A DNA stretch of 64,000 nucleotides from Chryseobacterium sp. StRB126 (GTDB lineage Bacteria > Bacteroidota > Bacteroidia > Flavobacteriales > Weeksellaceae). The stretch spans positions 3,534,001-3,598,000 of the forward strand of contig NZ_AP014624.1 of the NCBI RefSeq assembly GCF_000829375.1. Direction: 5' to 3'. Under the pieces are notes generated by a model. That model was not told the origin of the DNA, ran no database searches, and was given only the letters and a program-made list of their open reading frames with translations. Below are positions 5,046-48,660 of the stretch, in pieces; within the stretch, counting starts at the first letter, position 1, and every line of letters begins with the position of its first letter. A program made the translations under genes and the position numbers.

Positions 5046-6581
5046 TTGAAAAAATACTCGGTAATATTTACTCTGGCCATGCTTTCCTCATGTGCATCTA
5101 CTAAGAGGCACAATGAACAGCGGGCTTCATGTATTCCCCCGGAACAGCTTAAAGAAGATGTGGATTTTGCCTACTCAAAACTTCAGCAGATGCATCCACA
5201 ACTGTATTGGTATATTCCCAAGCAGGAATTGGAACATAAGTTCGACAGTCTTAAGCAAACTATTAATGAGCCGCTTACCCCACTTCAGTTTTATTTTAAA
5301 CTTCAACCTGTGATTGCAGGGATACGGGAAGGACATCTTTCATTAAGAGTTCCCAGAAAAAAATTCACCAAAAAGGAAATTAAAAACTTAGAACAAAAAA
5401 AAGGACTGTTCGGCAGATTCGGATATTATATTTCTGGTGACCAGATGTATATTACAGAAAACAAAGATTCTATTGAAAATATTCAACCGGGAACTGAAAT
5501 TCTGTCTATAGACAATGTTCCGGTTTCAGAATATATCAAAAAATACAGAAACCTTATCAGCAGTGATGGGTATAATACCACTTTCCAGCCTTATTTTTTA
5601 AAGGATTTATTCTTTAATTATTATACTGCAGAAAACGGACTTGCCGACAGAGCAACAATGGAAACTCTTTATAAAGGTGAAAAACATACTTATACTTTAA
5701 GCAGAGAATCAAAATCTGATACAGATCTTAAAAAGGATAAGGAAATGAATAAACGGACTCAGGAAAAAAAGCTGAATGATTATGTTTCAGCCAGCAATTC
5801 TTATAACCGGAGCTTTAAATTTCTGGATAAAGACAGCACCATTGCTTATATAAAAGTGAAAAGCTTTTCCCGAGAATATTCTGATGAGTTTTATAAAAAA
5901 ACATTTGCGAAGATTAAAAACTCAAAAGCAGGTTACCTCATCATAGATGTCCGTAATAATTATGGTGGTTCACTTTATGAGATCAATAATCTGTATTCTT
6001 ATCTTACGGATAAGCCTTTTACCTTAATAAAACCTTCTCAGGTTACCTCAAGGGATATCCCGTTAAGGACCAATTATTTTAGAAAAAGTACTCCGCTAGA
6101 CTATGCTATTAAAAGCATCTCCTATCCAAGTTACTTTTTTGCCCAGGCTTTCAGTACTTATAAAAAAGATGGAAAGGTTTTCTACAAAATGAAAGCTGAC
6201 AAACCTACAAAACCCAATAAAGGAGCTTTTCACGGTAAAATTTTTGTTCTGATTAACGGGGGAAGCTTTTCTGCCTCTTCTATTATTACGGCAAAGCTTA
6301 AAAATGATAAAAGAGCCACTCTTGTGGGTGAAGAAACCGGAGGCGCCAATGACGGAACCGTTGCCGGCTTTTATTCTTATCAGAAACTTCCGAATTCTGA
6401 GATCAGATTTCCAATCGGTCTACTTCTGGTACAGCCAAATATTGATTTTTCAGATACTAAAAAAGGAGTTATTCCTGATGTAGAAATCAAAGAAAGTATG
6501 CAGGATATTATTGATAAAAAAGATCCCCAGCTAGATTGGATCAGGAATGAAATTGGAAAGGAAAAAACAGGTAAGAATTAA
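5046..6581 (+). CDS. S41 family peptidase lipoprotein, TTG start
   Basis: A 511-residue serine protease-like protein of the C-terminal processing peptidase family (S41). A lipoprotein signal (MKKYSVIFTLAMLSSC, cysteine at residue 16) means it is membrane-anchored outside the inner membrane. The signal peptide is only complete if translation starts at the TTG at 5046; the next ATG would remove its charged start. A PDZ-like region (about 110-180, PGTEILSIDNVPVSEY) precedes the catalytic half (from about 260, IDVRNNYGGSLYE), with the nucleophile expected in INGGSFSASSIITAKL. The peptide substrate is unknown. It is divergent from the MBL hydrolase. Confidence 0.9.
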   Translation: MKKYSVIFTLAMLSSCASTKRHNEQRASCIPPEQLKEDVDFAYSKLQQMHPQLYWYIPKQELEHKFDSLKQTINEPLTPLQFYFKLQPVIAGIREGHLSLRVPRKKFTKKEIKNLEQKKGLFGRFGYYISGDQMYITENKDSIENIQPGTEILSIDNVPVSEYIKKYRNLISSDGYNTTFQPYFLKDLFFNYYTAENGLADRATMETLYKGEKHTYTLSRESKSDTDLKKDKEMNKRTQEKKLNDYVSASNSYNRSFKFLDKDSTIAYIKVKSFSREYSDEFYKKTFAKIKNSKAGYLIIDVRNNYGGSLYEINNLYSYLTDKPFTLIKPSQVTSRDIPLRTNYFRKSTPLDYAIKSISYPSYFFAQAFSTYKKDGKVFYKMKADKPTKPNKGAFHGKIFVLINGGSFSASSIITAKLKNDKRATLVGEETGGANDGTVAGFYSYQKLPNSEIRFPIGLLLVQPNIDFSDTKKGVIPDVEIKESMQDIIDKKDPQLDWIRNEIGKEKTGKN

Positions 6582-6650
6582 TTTTAAGAAGGAAGAAATT
6601 TATAAGTTGAAAAACGTATTCTTTATTTAAATCACTTAATACATATAGAT

Positions 6651-6683
6651 AGGTTTCGGCGGGCTTTCAGCCCGCCGAAACCT
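6651..6683. other. GC-rich perfect hairpin, 15-bp stem and 3-base loop
   Basis: AGGTTTCGGCGGGCT, loop TTC, then its exact complement. It lies 70 bases past the S41 peptidase stop, and a T-rich stretch follows on the top strand, so it could terminate that gene. Its GC content is far above the surroundings, which also fits a REP-like dispersed palindrome. Apart from this and the next hairpin, the 335-base gap 6582-6916 is featureless AT-rich DNA. Confidence 0.7.
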
Positions 6684-6863
6684 TTAACTTTACTTTTTTA
6701 AAATAATAAAACAAACAGATAAATATTGCCAGACCTCTCATCGTTCTTTTTAGTTTCTACTATTTTTAGATTAGTATTTTATTCAAAATAATTGTATGTA
6801 TTTCTAATTGTAATAATTACTTGTACAGTTAGTAGAGGAAAACAAAAATTTTACATAAAAATA

Positions 6864-6894
6864 ATACCCTGATATTTTTTCCATATCAGGGTAT
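6864..6894 (-). terminator. Rho-independent terminator
   Basis: Perfect 12-bp inverted repeat ATACCCTGATAT with a 7-base loop. On the bottom strand it is followed by a T-rich tract, 22 bases after the stop of the 119-residue protein gene. Confidence 0.8.
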
Positions 6895-6916
6895 CTGTAT
6901 CACTATTTAGTGTATT

Positions 6917-7276
6917 TTATTTAAAATCTAAAAACTCATCTTTTTCAAGATAGTGATTAAGGGCAGTGATAAGCTGAGAAAAAGTAATATCAGCATACTG
7001 CCGGAAAGCAAGGTCCACCACGTCTTGAATATTTTCATCAGAACACATATAGTTAAGCTTATTATGGTATACAAAATCCGGTAAGATTTCGTTATCATTC
7101 TCTCCTATATCTAAGTGGTCTCCGATGAAAACTTTCATTTCAGGTTCAAATTCATCTTTTGAAGAATAGACTGCGTAATTGTACTCCGGGTCATAAGATT
7201 CCTTTCTGTCTTGTTTATTCTTTACAAGTTCTAAGAATTCTTCTATAAAATACATCTGATTTTTAATCTCGTTCAT
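6917..7276 (-). CDS. Acidic small protein of unknown function
   Basis: A 119-residue cytoplasmic protein, strongly acidic, with no signal peptide or membrane segment. The central block VFIGDHLDIGENDNEILPDF and the following helix (NIQDVVDLAFRQY) look like a small mixed alpha/beta fold. It faintly recalls DUF7716-type or immunity-like small proteins, but I cannot assign it. It is monocistronic with its own terminator. Confidence 0.7.
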   Translation of the reverse strand: MNEIKNQMYFIEEFLELVKNKQDRKESYDPEYNYAVYSSKDEFEPEMKVFIGDHLDIGENDNEILPDFVYHNKLNYMCSDENIQDVVDLAFRQYADITFSQLITALNHYLEKDEFLDFK

Positions 7277-7397
7277 CTGATATTCTTTTAACAGCTCAAT
7301 TTTTTAAAGATAGAAAATTTTATAGAAGACAAACAGTTTCTAGTTCAGTTTATTTAAAAATTTTTGTAAAGATCTTAAATACAGCAAGGGATTCTAA

Positions 7398-9026
7398 TTA
7401 AAAAATATAGTCTGTGCTTAAAAAGTTGGAATCATGATCTCTAACAATAGTATTCAATAATTCTTTATTGGAATCTGTAAGTTTAGCAGCTACCAGAGAT
7501 CTGATGGAGAATGAACGCAACGCATCAAAAACAGAAAGCGTACCTTCCGCACTATCTTTTCTTCCGGTAAACGGAAATACATCCGGACCACGCTGTGCCT
7601 GACAGTTGATATTGACACGACTTACCAGATTTACAAAAGGATCAATTAGTTTTGCCACTTCCTGTGGATCTTCACTGAAAATACTCACCTGCATTCCATG
7701 GGAGGCATTCACCTGATAATCAATAGGTTCTTCAATATCTTCAAACGGAACTACTGGAATTACAGGCCCAAACTGTTCTTCATGATACAATTTCATATCG
7801 CTATTTACAGGATAAACAACTGCCGGAAAAACAAAGGACCCTTCTGTATAGCCACCGTTTTTATTTAAAACAGCTGCTCCTTTTGCTATTGCATCATCAA
7901 TACATTCTTTCAGGTATGGGGGTTTATTAACTTCAGGAAGAGGAGTTACTTTCACCTCTTTTTCCCACGGTAAACCGGCTTTCAGAGCGGAAACAGCTTC
8001 GCTTAACTTTGCCGTAAATTCCGCAGCGATTTCTTTTTGTACAAAAATCAGTTTTAATGCTGTACAACGCTGTCCATTGAATGAAAGTGCCCCTAAAATA
8101 CATTCACTTACTGCTACATCAAGATTGGCATTTTTAGTAACAATAGCCGCATTTTTAGCATCGAGGCTCAGAATTGCTCTCAGACGGTTCACTTTTGGAT
8201 GTAATTTCTTCAATCCATTAGCTACTTTACTGGAACCAATAAAAGCCAAAACATTGACTTTACCACTTTCCATGATGGGAGTAATAATTTCAGAACCTTT
8301 TCCATATAACGTGTTCACCGTTCCTTTTGGAAAAGCTTCTTTAAAGGCATTCAGTAGAGGATAATGAGCCAACACACCATGTTTAGGAAGTTTAAACAAA
8401 ATAGTATTCCCCATAATTAATGCAGGAATCAGCGTTGTAAAGATCTCATTCAAAGGATAATTGAAAGGCCCCATACTTAAAACCACACCCAGCGGTGCTC
8501 TTCTGATCTGTGCAATGGTACCTTCTGCCTGCTGGAAACGAGAAGATTCTCTGTCCAGGTCTTTTAAAGCATCAATAGTCTGATTGATATAATCTACTGT
8601 ACGGTCAAATTCTTTGGTAGAATCTGCCAATGTTTTCCCGATTTCCCACATCAGCAACTTTATAATCAGATCACGCTGTTGGATCATCAAATAGACAAAT
8701 TTCTGCATGCATTTGATTCTTCCTTCTACAGACATTGTAGGCCATTCCCCAAGACCGTTATCATAAGCTTTCACGCAAGCTTCAAGAACCTCCATAGCTT
8801 CCTCCGGACCGATATTGGGGATGCTCCCCAACAACTTTCTCTCTAATCCGTTTTCTGTAGGAATACAGACCGGGGAATAAATATTCTGCGTTTCTCCTTT
8901 CCATTCTACCAATTCACCATTCAGAAGATAAACTTTCTGATAAATTTCCGGTACTTTATATTCTTCGGGGATTTCGTTTTCACTTTTAAAAATATCTTGA
9001 AACGATGCATTGTTTGCTGAACTCAT
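7398..9026 (-). CDS. Aldehyde dehydrogenase, GapN-type (NADP-dependent glyceraldehyde-3-phosphate dehydrogenase-like)
   Basis: A 542-residue member of the aldehyde dehydrogenase superfamily, most like non-phosphorylating NADP-dependent glyceraldehyde-3-phosphate dehydrogenase, which oxidises glyceraldehyde-3-phosphate to 3-phosphoglycerate and yields NADPH. It is longer than classical GapN (about 475) because of an N-terminal extension. Visible landmarks are Asn189 in PFNYPL, the catalytic Cys321 in GQRCTA and the cofactor-site EEQFGPV. The LELGGK block that normally supplies the general base Glu reads LSLDAK at 286-291, so the Glu is replaced by Ser287. Gene symbol withheld for this reason. 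No operon partners. Confidence 0.85.
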   Translation of the reverse strand: MSSANNASFQDIFKSENEIPEEYKVPEIYQKVYLLNGELVEWKGETQNIYSPVCIPTENGLERKLLGSIPNIGPEEAMEVLEACVKAYDNGLGEWPTMSVEGRIKCMQKFVYLMIQQRDLIIKLLMWEIGKTLADSTKEFDRTVDYINQTIDALKDLDRESSRFQQAEGTIAQIRRAPLGVVLSMGPFNYPLNEIFTTLIPALIMGNTILFKLPKHGVLAHYPLLNAFKEAFPKGTVNTLYGKGSEIITPIMESGKVNVLAFIGSSKVANGLKKLHPKVNRLRAILSLDAKNAAIVTKNANLDVAVSECILGALSFNGQRCTALKLIFVQKEIAAEFTAKLSEAVSALKAGLPWEKEVKVTPLPEVNKPPYLKECIDDAIAKGAAVLNKNGGYTEGSFVFPAVVYPVNSDMKLYHEEQFGPVIPVVPFEDIEEPIDYQVNASHGMQVSIFSEDPQEVAKLIDPFVNLVSRVNINCQAQRGPDVFPFTGRKDSAEGTLSVFDALRSFSIRSLVAAKLTDSNKELLNTIVRDHDSNFLSTDYIF

Positions 9027-9197
9027 ATTTTTAGTATTTAATAATTTGAATCTGAACTTTTGTAGAATAAAGGTAGATGTAAAAATTGATTTTCAGAATA
9101 ATGATTCAATAGATTTGCTCTATTTAAAAGCTATTTGAATGAAAATTAACCCAGCCAACTGAAAAAAACAATATTTTTGTTTAAAAATAAATTTTCA

Positions 9198-9770
9198 ATG
9201 TTTTCAAAAATAGTTTTCAGTACGTTATTCTTTTTCTCAGCAATGGGTTTTGCTCAAAAATCTAAACCTATCAATACTGTTTTATTAAAAGGAACACCTG
9301 TTCGTACTTATTCCAAATTACCGGATGTCAACAAACCGGCTCCTAAATTTACCCTTACAGACGTTAATATGAATGACCAGAGCCTGGATGCTTACAAAGG
9401 GAGATATGTGATCCTGAATATCTTTCCAAGTGTAGATACGGGAGTTTGCTCAGCATCTGTTCATCACTTCAATGAAGAGGCAGGAAATCTTCCTAATACG
9501 GTAGTTCTTTGCATTTCTAAGGACTTACCTTTCGCTCAAAAAAGGTTCTGTGGAGCTGAAGGAATTAACAATGTTGTAATGCTTTCGGATTTCCGTTCAG
9601 ATTTTGGATGGAACTACGGGGTGGAAATGGTAGAATCTTCTATGAAAGGACTTCTCAGTAGAGCGGTTGTAGTAATTGATCCTTCGGGAACTATTATTTA
9701 CGAAGAACAAGTTCCGGATATTTCTCAAGAGCCTAATTATGCAGCAGCTATTCAGGCTGTGAAACAATAA
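9198..9770 (+). CDS. tpx: Exported thiol peroxidase (Tpx family)
   Basis: A peroxiredoxin of the Tpx type that reduces hydrogen and organic peroxides using a reductant such as thioredoxin. The peroxidatic cysteine is in DTGVCSASV and the resolving cysteine in KRFCGAEG. Unusually, the N-terminus is a signal peptide (MFSKIVFSTLFFFSAMGFAQ), so this copy acts in the periplasm. The frame is open to a TTG at 9177, but the ATG at 9198-9200 gives a normal signal peptide and is preferred. A TATTTTTG box overlaps the rejected TTG start. Confidence 0.9.
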   Translation: MFSKIVFSTLFFFSAMGFAQKSKPINTVLLKGTPVRTYSKLPDVNKPAPKFTLTDVNMNDQSLDAYKGRYVILNIFPSVDTGVCSASVHHFNEEAGNLPNTVVLCISKDLPFAQKRFCGAEGINNVVMLSDFRSDFGWNYGVEMVESSMKGLLSRAVVVIDPSGTIIYEEQVPDISQEPNYAAAIQAVKQ

Positions 9771-9779
9771 ACTAAAAAG

Positions 9780-9811
9780 CTCCGATAATTTTCTATTATC
9801 GGAGTTTTTTA
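9780..9811 (+). terminator. Rho-independent terminator of tpx
   Basis: Stem CTCCGATAAT, loop TTTCT, complement, then TTTTTTA. It begins 10 bases after the tpx stop and lies between tpx and the convergent TonB-plug pseudogene. Confidence 0.9.
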
Positions 9812-9817
9812 TTGTTC

Positions 9818-10394
9818 TTATCTTGATTTTCTTTTCTTCTTAGTAGTAACCACAATTACACCATTTTTAGCGTCTCCACCATACTTTTCTACATCTTCTT
9901 TAGCCAAAAGAGTATTGACAGTTTCAATAATCTCCGGCTTTATCGTACGTAATTCTTCTATAGAAATCTTTTTACCATCCAGTAAAACCAAAGGTTCTTC
10001 TGCACCTTTGAAGCAGGTGCCCCAATTCTTACAGATGGATTCCTGTTGAAAGGATCAGTGGATATGACACTCATGTTCAACCCTCGTACTTTCTCTGAAA
10101 TTTTAGTACCTGGCTTGTTTCCTGTGCGTTTACAGTAGCTGTAAAACCACCCACTACCAATAGTCCTAATGCCAGTTTACTCGCTAATGAAAAGTTCAGA
10201 TTCACATCCAACTGATCTTCCCGAAATCTTCCACAAATATCTTTATTAGAGCCAAAAATATTCATAATTTCTTCTTCTGAAAAATTGGTGAAATCATAAA
10301 CTGTTTTTGAACAAACGGAGCAGAATTTTCCTTTTTCATCAGGAGACATATTGTTCCAGTTTTCATGACAGGGTTTTGGAATGGTAATTTTCAT
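9818..10394 (-). pseudogene. TonB-dependent-receptor plug-like protein, two frameshifts
   Basis: The intact start encodes a Bacteroidota-specific N-terminus (MKITIPKPCHENWNNMSP, with conserved CSVC and CGRF motifs and a membrane segment LALGLLVVGGF). After ETSQ the homology moves to a second frame (KISEKVRGLNMSV, then DPFNRNPSVRIG), then to a third that encodes the plug-type ending PLVLLDGKKISIEELRTIKP and KNGVIVVTTKKK, with a stop at 9818-9820. The three pieces lie in three different frames, so at least two indels have occurred. Related intact proteins have a membrane-anchored start and a periplasmic TonB-plug tail. Sequencing error is the alternative. Confidence 0.8.
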
Positions 10395-10568
10395 AGTATT
10401 CTTTTACCTATAAAGATGCTCTGGTGAAGAAAAAGGTTGGAAAATGCTAAGATGCAATTAAAATTTTAAATATCGTGCTTTATTTTATCACAGATAAAAT
10501 CTTTGCGCCTTAAAAATATGATTTCAACATTTCAAGCTCTTTGCGCCTTTGCTCTACTCCAACAAAAA

Positions 10569-11330
10569 CTAAGCTTCCAAAACCATTTTCCCATCCTCAA
10601 GAATCATATATTCCTGCCCTAATTCCTCAGAAACTCTTTTCAAATCATTTTCATCAAACAATTGAGGAATATAGCTTTTCTCATGAGTAAACAGCCCGTA
10701 ATGTATCGGAACCAATTTTTTAGCATGTAAAAGATGGGCAGCAGCAAAGGCTTCCTTCAAATTAAGAGAAGCCGGAACCGGACTGTATTCCAACCCAATA
10801 ATCTCAAAATTAACAACGACTCCGTTTACGGGTAAAAAAGCATAATCGATGTCTTTATTTTCTTTCCCCAACTTCCAGAATTGGTTATGCCAGATGGTAT
10901 CTCCGCCATGAAAGATTTTAGTAGTTGCATCTTCCACAATCCATGAAGACTGAGTCTCTCCCACTCCATCCATTGCAAATACTGGCTTGAAGGTGATCCC
11001 ATTTTCAGAGAAGGTTTCATCCAGATCCAGGACTACCATTTCAACACCATCCATATGCTCTCTCACCAATGGTTCAAGTTCTGAATACACTACCAATTTT
11101 CCATCATTTTTCAGACATTTTTTGATAGCGCCTTTGTCAAAATGATCTAAATGCAAATGAGTAAACAGAATATAATCTGCCTGCACATGATCTGAGAAGT
11201 TTATCACCTGCTCTACAGCATCCCCAAGAACGGGTTTGTAATAAGCGAAATCTTCTGCTGCATCTATTAAAATGGTTTTGCCATTAGAAAGCAGTTTTAT
11301 TCCTGCCCAGTTTAATTTTTGTATTTCCAT
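10569..11330 (-). CDS. MBL-fold metallohydrolase (UlaG-like)
   Basis: A 253-residue cytoplasmic metallo-beta-lactamase-fold hydrolase. The HxHxDH motif is THLHLDH (His58, His60, Asp62, His63); later metal ligands are in FHGGDT and VPIHYG. There is no signal peptide. The compact size and IDAAEDFAYY lead fit UlaG/YtkL-like hydrolases; the substrate is unknown. The frame extends five codons further to 11345, but the ATG at 11328-11330 gives the family-like start MEIQKLNWAGIKLL and is preferred. Confidence 0.85.
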   Translation of the reverse strand: MEIQKLNWAGIKLLSNGKTILIDAAEDFAYYKPVLGDAVEQVINFSDHVQADYILFTHLHLDHFDKGAIKKCLKNDGKLVVYSELEPLVREHMDGVEMVVLDLDETFSENGITFKPVFAMDGVGETQSSWIVEDATTKIFHGGDTIWHNQFWKLGKENKDIDYAFLPVNGVVVNFEIIGLEYSPVPASLNLKEAFAAAHLLHAKKLVPIHYGLFTHEKSYIPQLFDENDLKRVSEELGQEYMILEDGKMVLEA

Positions 11331-47525: not shown

Positions 47526-47675
47526 ATGAAAAATTTAAAAAAACTAACAAAGACCGATTTAAAAACAATCTCCGGCGGATGGGTTCCACAACCGGGACAA
47601 AGCTGTCCAAGCGGAACTTGTCAATACCGCGAAAATGGAGCCTGCAGAAACTATGATCCTGAAAAATGTATTTAA
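47526..47675 (+). CDS. Double-glycine leader peptide, bacteriocin-like
   Basis: A 49-residue peptide with the leader MKNLKKLTKTDLKTISGG, cleavable after the Gly-Gly by a C39-type peptidase/ABC exporter. The 31-residue core has four cysteines and starts WVPQPGQSC. This leader type is known from Chryseobacterium bacteriocin-like proteins. Export would release the core, possibly with two disulfides. No transporter or modification gene is adjacent. The stop codon runs into the stem of a strong terminator, so the gene is a complete small unit. Confidence 0.82.
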   Translation: MKNLKKLTKTDLKTISGGWVPQPGQSCPSGTCQYRENGACRNYDPEKCI

Positions 47676-47783: not shown

Positions 47784-47969
47784 TTAAGCATTCCCATCCG
47801 GATTTATAAAGTTAACAGGATTATTAAATGCATAATTATAAGGTGAGTGTCTCCTCATTATCTCTGCAGCGGCATCTACAACTCCCCATCTTCCCAGATC
47901 AGGCATATACATCCTTGCCCCATAATCATACATTCCTGTCTCTTGCAACTCCTTCCCGTTGTACTTGTA
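47784..47969 (-). pseudogene. RHS core C-terminal remnant
   Basis: Translates as [20 protein letters not shown] continuing through DLGRWGVVD to [13 protein letters not shown] and a stop. This is the conserved end of the RHS core, nearly identical to residues around 890-940 of the intact RHS protein at 50743-54261 up to the DPLAEK position, then divergent. Everything upstream has been replaced by non-coding DNA with stops in frame. It marks a former second RHS gene or an orphan tip cassette. Confidence 0.88.
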
Positions 47970-48234
47970 GTTCTACAACTCCGCTCAACTTTTCAGGATT
48001 TGCCTACTCAACCTTTTCTCGTGCGAGGCTTTACACTGTGATCGCCTACTCTTGCTCGCTTAAGTAAATATAATTTTTCTTTTTCAATTGAAAAAAATAA
48101 TTAATGTCAAAAATAGTAGTGAAAGTTTAGCAGGCAATGTTTTTATTTGCTTTTTTATGTGGTTATAAAAACAAAAATTTAAAATCTCTTGTCAAAATCA
48201 TTTAATACATCTATTTTTTTGTAAAACATGATAT

Positions 48235-48242
48235 TATATTTG
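48235..48242 (+). promoter_or_regulatory. -7 promoter box of the small membrane peptide
   Basis: TATATTTG, a perfect TAnnTTTG match, with only four bases between it and the ATG at 48247. The transcript would be leaderless or nearly so. Confidence 0.5.
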
Positions 48243-48246
48243 TCCC

Positions 48247-48360
48247 ATGAACGAAGGAATAACACTTTTCGCCCTGCTTTTTCTAATTATTGTAGCAATG
48301 ACCACTTTGGTTATTGTTTCCAATAATGCTAGAAAAACAAAAAGTGACCGCGAACAATAG
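48247..48360 (+). CDS. Small single-span membrane peptide, candidate type I toxin
   Basis: A 37-residue peptide: short polar start MNEG, one hydrophobic helix of about 20 residues (ITLFALLFLIIVAMTTLVIV), then a charged tail ending KSDREQ. Size, layout and charged tail match type I toxins and holin-like toxic peptides in Gram-positive bacteria. It has its own -7 box, a terminator after it, and an inverted repeat spanning its stop codon, overlapped by a convergent promoter on the other strand. No sequence family is claimed; a small structural or regulatory membrane protein is the alternative. Confidence 0.55.
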   Translation: MNEGITLFALLFLIIVAMTTLVIVSNNARKTKSDREQ

Positions 48361-48421
48361 TAGAGCAATCACTTTCTTTCAATTTAGTTTTCAGTAGTCC
48401 ACCCTGCCAGGTGGACTATTA
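48336..48421 (-). ncRNA. Candidate antisense RNA opposing the small membrane peptide
   Basis: A perfect -7 box on the bottom strand (48427-48434) would start an RNA at about 48421. It would begin with the stable 9-bp hairpin 48395-48418 and run across the 3' end of the peptide gene. On this strand AAAGTGA, a 21-base loop and TCACTTT are followed by TTGTTTTT, a weak terminator-like end near 48330-48340. Predicted length is about 85 bases. This is inferred from layout alone. Confidence 0.35.
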
Positions 48422-48425
48422 TTTT
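48395..48425 (+). terminator. Terminator of the small membrane peptide gene
   Basis: Perfect 9-bp stem TAGTCCACC, loop CTGCCA, complement, then TTATTTT. It starts 35 bases after the stop codon. Confidence 0.8.
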
Positions 48426-48426
48426 A

Positions 48427-48434
48427 CAAATATA
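48427..48434 (-). promoter_or_regulatory. Convergent -7 box, candidate antisense promoter
   Basis: TATATTTG on the bottom strand, the same octamer as the peptide's own promoter at 48235-48242. No TTG box at standard spacing. Confidence 0.4.
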
Positions 48435-48523
48435 TACTTTCTTTCGATTTGTTTTGTGGTTCCGGTGGTATTGTTGTCGCTGTTGTTGTAGATGTGAACT
48501 TGTGGGTAAAATTGGTGCAGCTT

Positions 48524-48577
48524 TTAGCCTTGGGTATAGCCCCGCTGTTTTCGTAAACTCTTTAGCTTTTCTATCAT
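48524..48577 (-). pseudogene. Truncated XRE-type regulator start
   Basis: Seventeen codons, MIEKLKSLRKQRGYTQG, then a stop. This is the first helix pair of a Cro/C1-type DNA-binding protein cut off after YTQ. A perfect -7 box lies upstream at 48597-48604. Codons after the stop remain open to about 48422 but show no HTH similarity. Confidence 0.55.
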
Positions 48578-48596
48578 GATTTTTTATTCATTACTA

Positions 48597-48604
48597 CAAA
48601 TATA
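48597..48604 (-). promoter_or_regulatory. -7 box ahead of the truncated XRE gene
   Basis: TATATTTG on the bottom strand, 19 bases before the ATG. Third use of the same octamer within 370 bases. Confidence 0.4.
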
Positions 48605-48660
48605 AAAAATTCAAACCTTTTATTCTATACCTAAGTATTATCCCAAAGATTTATTTCTAT

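Follow-up and report, generated by a model that had tools for sequence, protein, structure and literature searches.

Does a ∼200-base stretch of the Chryseobacterium sp. StRB126 genome encode a small membrane toxin together with an antisense RNA that silences it, that is, a type I toxin-antitoxin module? The stretch, here termed the cassette, lies at 48235–48434 of a 64,000-nucleotide region (the window, positions 3534001–3598000 of the forward strand of NZ_AP014624.1, GCF_000829375.1) in a genome of 5.5 Mb on one contig. The original prediction, made from the sequence alone, rested on a short open reading frame (ORF), two facing promoter boxes and a set of hairpins. We analyzed each of these parts in the window and across related genomes.

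The peptide and its relatives

The ORF was present as predicted: 37 codons at 48247–48360 (+), encoding a single-span membrane peptide by hydropathy, with one hydrophobic stretch (best 19-residue mean hydropathy, 2.86) and a basic tail. The gene is present in a single copy in its own genome. The peptide had no toxin-family match in Pfam, NCBIfam or PADLOC: Pfam gave no family at E ≤ 0.1 for the window peptide, NCBIfam gave sub-threshold matches only (two unrelated names, at most 5 of 13 family members, no curated cut-off reached), and PADLOC matched none of the 13 members.

A peptide search at E ≤ 0.1 gave matches in 16 of the 173 genus genomes, of which those in G008 and G104 look like chance and that in G085 is a degenerate relic; loci L015 and L016 of this search were dropped as chance matches and stand outside the set used below. 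A family profile was then built from 13 distinct members, with the second G144 copy and a relic excluded. Among 296 family genomes it added G283 and G285, the latter with two copies (2.8e-14, against 0.003 for the next score). Intact relatives were thus found in 15 genomes, the source genome included: 13 of 173 in the genus and two in sister genera (G283, G285). The 13 genus genomes hold 14 loci, since G144 has two, and the 17 intact loci in total reduce to 15 distinct ones when the pairs in G144 and G285 are collapsed. With 395 genomes of the order the profile matched four genomes, all of the same family and the source genome among them, plus one weak match, in G615 (E 5.9e-4), which was judged from the raw sequence to be due to chance. 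The 395 phylum genomes yielded only the source genome and one other of its genus, adding nothing firm, and no match to the profile was found in viral contigs, plasmids or phages. Five loci, all from Chryseobacterium, came from a genome contig collection.

The ORF is selected as a protein. Pooled pN/pS was 0.39 for the coding frame, against 0.86 and 1.20 for the two alternative frames (14 distinct loci, 30 codons; L092 was excluded for an indel), and pN was below pS in all 91 locus pairs of this set. A hairpin inside the coding region (48279–48335, +; 48279–48283 pairs with 48331–48335, and 48294–48304 with 48308–48318) was also observed. In the sense alignment of the relatives its helices had 93.3 and 96.4% of cells paired, and this long fold shows some paired changes, for which RNA selection or codon constraint are both possible.

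Facing promoter boxes, hairpins and a predicted antisense RNA

The sense −7 box TATATTTG was read at 48235–48242 (+), four bases 5′ of the ATG as predicted. The −7 box of F. johnsoniae is described as running from T at −12 through G at −5 (PMC6847099), and by this numbering transcription would start at 48247, the A of the ATG. The peptide mRNA is therefore predicted to be leaderless, starting at its own AUG. Leaderless mRNAs are reported as a minority in flavobacteria, making up 5.5% of mRNAs in F. psychrophilum (PMC9723704). An exact TAnnTTTG sense box was found in a fitting place in 13 of the 15 distinct loci. The sense box puts the ATG at +1 to +4 in 8/15 distinct loci (exactly +1 in five of these) and gives a 65–82 nt leader in 5/15. 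L086a and L093 carry only seven of the eight box bases, and L093 has in addition an exact box at −39. The promoters of the leaderless and leader classes are alike by eye in some members (TTTAGCAAA..., e.g. L083 and L084), which gives the impression that a leader was acquired or dropped in the interval from promoter to ATG. By eye, the long leaders of some loci seemed able to pair with the 3′ end, but minimum-energy folds did not in general show such pairing.

The same octamer faces the ORF from the other strand, at 48427–48434 (−), in agreement with the original prediction. This antisense box reads TAnnTTTG in 14 of the 15 distinct loci and is one base off (TACCCTTG) in the 15th, L092. It is kept where the flank beyond is unrelated by eye (L081, L086a, L087, L090, L092). 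Within the window, TATATTTG occurs 11 times, where 6.05 are expected (a count of 11 was reached in 3 of 100 shuffles), and TAnnTTTG 90 times against 83.5, which is not above chance. Since the −7 boxes alone are at most modestly above chance, everything depends on comparison, and it is conservation that lifts the boxes. A −33 box at standard spacing had been noted as missing from both promoters, and none was seen on either side; this is weak counter-evidence, because a −33 box could not be identified in F. johnsoniae (PMC7366714).

By the −7 numbering the antisense RNA would start at 48422, one base from the earlier 48421. It is predicted to be ∼89 nt long (48334–48422, −), judging from its box and terminator, and complementary to the 3′ end of an mRNA spanning 48247–48425. 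The two transcripts would overlap at their 3′ ends, away from the start codon, over ∼89 nt rather than the ∼80 bases first estimated, so that the antisense RNA would cover the last ∼90 nt of the mRNA, its final codons included. One direct repeat was found in 48200–48450, the 15-nt ACTTTCTTTCRATTT. Its first copy (48371–48385) lies inside the predicted antisense RNA, its second (48436–48450) just upstream of the antisense −7 box, and neither is near the start codon.

The 9-bp hairpin at 48395–48418 (+; hairpin 1, the predicted mRNA terminator, with a T-rich tail at 48419–48425) and both arms of the inverted repeat AAAGTGA/TCACTTT, all noted in the original prediction, were read directly. That prediction had considered the antisense terminator weak. 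Hairpin 2 (48341–48375, −), the predicted antisense terminator, has 11 bp and a free energy of −12.6 kcal/mol with its tail, and none of 200 shuffles was as stable. An 11-bp stable hairpin with a T-rich tract behind it, extending to about 48333, is not a weak terminator. A generic terminator scan called neither hairpin.

Both hairpins align in all 15 distinct loci. Read as antisense RNA, the two helices had 95.5 and 98.2% of cells paired, the higher value belonging to hairpin 2. In this alignment the paired cells, the cells changed on both sides and the covariation score were each reached by 0 of 500 shuffles, the pairs changed on both sides by 6, and the further pair types by 443. The same five measures were reached by 0, 0, 0, 11 and 329 of 500 shuffles in the sense alignment; two of the five (pairs changed on both sides and further pair types) are thus weaker. 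Sliding by 1–3 columns lowered pairing to 33–62% (antisense) and 39–66% (sense), though this control is biased in favour of a structure that was itself drawn from the aligned sequences.

A G-U pair on one strand is an A-C mismatch on the other, so wobbles reveal which strand folds. Hairpin 2 had 20 G-U cells as antisense, spread over six pair columns, and none as sense, and hairpin 1 had five as sense and one as antisense; the cells come from related sequences, and the independent changes are fewer than the cells. From this opposite asymmetry, the mRNA terminator is best assigned to hairpin 1 and the antisense terminator, most simply, to hairpin 2. The stop codon lies before hairpin 2 in L003 and inside it in the window, and the hairpin stays, suggesting that it is kept as RNA. 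The covariance analysis of the region 48330–48425 that had been proposed thus found both hairpins conserved and covarying, with strand-specific wobbles.

These data bear on whether an antisense RNA is made at all. The cassette could be an ordinary small gene with a bidirectional terminator, its minus-strand box unused. TATATTTG is frequent in this AT-rich genome, as its 11 occurrences in the window illustrate, the −33 box is missing, and antisense transcripts can come from random promoters, as cautioned in PMC7366714. Against this, 14 of 15 loci keep the box without a mismatch, even beside unrelated flanks, and hairpin 2 wobbles as antisense only (20 vs. 0), which makes such a gene very improbable.

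The minus-strand covariance model matched 13 of 173 genus genomes at E ≤ 8.2e-11, with the next match at 0.0014, and these are the same 13 genomes that encode an intact peptide. The model was built from those sequences, which match by construction, and the informative part is that no other genome matched strongly. In the source genome the best match (E 3.0e-16) was followed by one at 0.63, leaving a single convincing copy. Weak matches occurred at 16 places, seven of which were inspected as raw sequence (L060–L065 and L076); all except L063 were ordinary terminators or unrelated sequence by look, and a weak match in G282 was likewise an ordinary terminator. In L063 (G045) the peptide gene has decayed, start codon included, and remnants of both hairpins are visible. 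A degenerate relic outside the 15 loci (L013/L091, G085) lacks the antisense region and has an altered sense box and peptide. Two decayed cases are too few to argue from. A peptide kept while its antisense parts were lost, named beforehand as the finding that would count against the prediction, was seen in none of the 15 intact distinct loci; the proposed genus search gave 13 of 173 genomes with an intact peptide, and hairpins were present in all 15 distinct loci.

Selection, covariation and wobbles fit equally well a small membrane protein whose role is regulatory or physiological and whose mRNA is tuned by a cis antisense RNA, and antisense control of non-toxin genes is described in Bacteroides (DonS and susC homologues; PMC7366714). 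A patchy spread (13/173 genus genomes), small size, frequent mobile-element neighbours and degenerate copies are, however, seen more typically in toxin-antitoxin modules than in housekeeping genes. We regard a non-toxin role as unlikely, though it deserves to be kept in mind, and the peptide as likely to be a membrane toxin acting against its own cell.

A slot between rhs tips and a recombinase element

The original prediction placed the locus among accessory debris. An orphan rhs tip remnant was confirmed at 47784–47948 (−), a stretch 69.7% identical to residues 880–945 of the full-length RHS protein of the window, and the truncated XRE label stands by eye only. The latter concerns a short frame on the minus strand, MIEKLKSLRKQRGYTQG then a stop (48524–48604), which by eye resembles the truncated start of an XRE-type regulator; the XRE-like frame itself (48524–48577) has 17 residues. 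A further TATATTTG box lies upstream of it, at 48597–48604, and 48531–48626 is 98% identical to L093 7070–7165. On the other side of the cassette, 47526–47675 (+) encodes a peptide of 49 residues that contains cysteine and a double-glycine motif (ISGG) and gave a sub-threshold Bacteriocin_IIc match.

A match to the RHS core of the window was found within 2 kb in 10 of the 15 distinct loci (the window, L078, L080, L081, L082, L083, L084, L086a, L088 and L093). One or two recombinase-like ORFs lie 0.7–1.1 kb from the ATG in eight (L079–L084, L086a and L088). Profile searches, run on the L086 ORFs and one L079 ORF only, identified tyrosine recombinases, and in L086 also a CHC2/Toprim primase-like protein. 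At E ≤ 1e-30 the L086 recombinase was found in 15 of 173 genus genomes. It was present in 6 of the 13 genomes with the cassette and in 9 of the 160 others (Fisher p 1.8e-4, not corrected for relatedness), and gave no match at this threshold in 7 of the 13, the source genome included.

In L086 a mobile element spans 6493–10601, carrying tyrosine recombinases, at most two in tandem, together with the primase-like protein. Equivalents were seen by eye in L079–L084, L088, L089 and L091, repeatedly beside rhs tips, and rhs arrays are possibly assembled by such an element. A similar arrangement in gut bacteria may be the subject of a 2025 preprint that deals with orphan immunity genes (PMC12247911). 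The L079 contig (NZ_MVAG01000207.1, 5925 bases) carries the cassette and recombinases at a stated coverage of 380. It is perhaps a multicopy element or a collapsed repeat, and its ends showed no terminal overlap. G144 and G285 each carry two cassette copies (G144:C1:4543434 and 4554020; G285:C1:1307650 and 1351290). Each pair of copies is embedded in repeats that are 99% identical; these measure 2.3 kb in G285 and, being truncated by the contig end, at least 2.9 kb in G144, and in both genomes they begin within the rhs core match.

Among 23 recombinase loci given by this search, seven had the cassette and 16 did not. The element end is shared by 13 of these 16, and 8 of the 10 cassette-less copies displayed have the TTCAATTGAA palindrome next or close to it; the rhs/recombinase-element junction is empty in recombinase copies without the cassette. 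In the window the palindrome (48083–48092) forms the left, rhs-side edge of the slot and a residual recombinase-element end (48474–48530) its right edge. Six of the 15 distinct loci (the window, L079, L080, L085, L088 and L093) have the palindrome no more than 260 nt before the ATG, and the end motif lies downstream in 10 of 15. With the palindrome upstream and the element end downstream, the cassette sits between the two in these six loci. L081 has the palindrome on the downstream side, and L087, L090 and L092 have neither mark, with no rhs or recombinase ORF in view. Given the seven genomes without a recombinase match at E ≤ 1e-30 and these solitary copies, an addiction role for the recombinase element is not general. 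Because the association is only partial, the cassette is described here as sitting at the element junction; the reading in which it belongs to the recombinase element was discarded.

The window copy has lost the recombinases and has an IS as its neighbour. The family might therefore be a genuine toxin-antitoxin module of which this copy is debris like its neighbours, being located between the rhs remnant, the truncated XRE-like frame and the IS, in a genome with no recombinase match at E ≤ 1e-30. Each part of the window cassette is intact, however, and its peptide shares 97% identity with the one from another species (pS 0.05 and pN 0.01 for this pair), so that a debris copy appears improbable.

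The type I reading and known systems

The candidate type I reading gained support from purifying selection, an antisense box in 14 of 15 loci, conserved covarying hairpins and strand-specific wobbles. We consider that the cassette is probably a type I toxin-antitoxin module, in which a putative membrane-damaging peptide would be translated from a predicted leaderless mRNA and a predicted ∼89-nt antisense RNA would pair with the 3′ end of that mRNA and mark it for decay. The sequence would fit the following course: (i) the mRNA, ended by hairpin 1, would be translated from its 5′-terminal AUG, and the peptide would span and damage the inner membrane of its own cell; (ii) the antisense RNA, made from the facing promoter and ended by hairpin 2, would pair with the mRNA over ∼90 nt at the 3′ end, and the duplex would be cut by RNase III, which the source genome encodes (profile score over cut-off); and (iii) the cassette would stabilise the adjacent array or element through post-segregational killing. 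Repression by duplex cleavage is suggested by the distance of the antisense RNA from the start codon. Where the mRNA starts at or near the AUG, blocking of a 5′ ribosome site would be impossible, and the antisense RNA would then have to silence from the 3′ end.

The original prediction had likened the layout to Fst, TxpA and BsrG systems. On the predicted ends the layout comes closer to TxpA/RatA than to Fst, because the antisense RNA would lie far from the start codon. TxpA/RatA of Bacillus subtilis shares with the predicted layout of the cassette converging transcripts that overlap at their 3′ ends (∼75 nt there), a small peptide, a location in a mobile element (skin) and an antitoxin that does not overlap the translation initiation region, and repression there is described as mainly by RNase III decay (PMC4147584). 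In contrast, the peptide here has no family match, 37 rather than 59 residues and a host of another phylum, the predicted overlap enters the coding region, and the mRNA is predicted to be leaderless. The BsrG/SR4 RNAs of B. subtilis also overlap at their 3′ ends; no sequence relation to them was found, and the likeness is one of layout only. Degradation and translation are both listed as targets of BsrG/SR4 regulation (PMC4147584). Fst RNAI/RNAII (pAD1 par) likewise has converging RNAs with a 3′ overlap and a short hydrophobic peptide, but its RNAs are reported to share one terminator and to carry direct repeats that block translation (PMC4147584). Here there are two hairpins with opposite wobbles, unlike a shared bidirectional terminator, and no repeat near the start codon. 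Rfam 15 gave no match at gathering over the whole window and none at E ≤ 1 for 48100–48520.

According to a 2025 paper, type I systems are known only from Proteobacteria, Firmicutes and Tenericutes, plus one in Cyanobacteria (PMC12390103). The latter type I-like module, MsoT1/MsoA1 of Microcystis, resembles the cassette in lying outside the three classic phyla and differs in its phylum and its two predicted membrane spans, against a single span here (PMC12390103). Within the phylum, RNA-seq of B. thetaiotaomicron gave seven putative type I pairs with a cis antisense architecture, in which each of the divergently encoded genes has a candidate small ORF, which sets them apart from the present layout; the accessible text reports neither a conserved family nor a toxicity assay for them (PMC7366714). 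With these pairs in print we make no claim of a first in the phylum. Toxin-antitoxin systems have been counted in marine Bacteroidota, with no type I case named in the accessible text (PMC12654330), and in that of PMC10367356 the term type I occurs in a reference only. By titles and the openings of abstracts, in a literature coverage outside which most subscription papers fall, no Chryseobacterium or flavobacterial type I system was found. RNA-controlled toxins thus appear hardly documented in Bacteroidota.

Whether the cassette represents a new, Bacteroidota-native type I family is, in our judgement, evenly balanced. Such a family would be characterized by (i) facing TAnnTTTG promoters; (ii) an mRNA that in about half of the members starts at or within three bases of the AUG and is silenced wholly from its 3′ end; and (iii) movement as an addiction cassette that slots in where rhs toxin arrays meet an element with two recombinases and a primase. 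As a family that is conserved across Chryseobacterium and its sister genera and open to experiment, it would broaden the range of type I systems in Bacteroidota, and would provide a naturally occurring example in which the 3′ end is the only point where a leaderless toxin mRNA can be controlled. The cassette would also allow asking whether addiction holds rhs arrays and recombinase elements in place.
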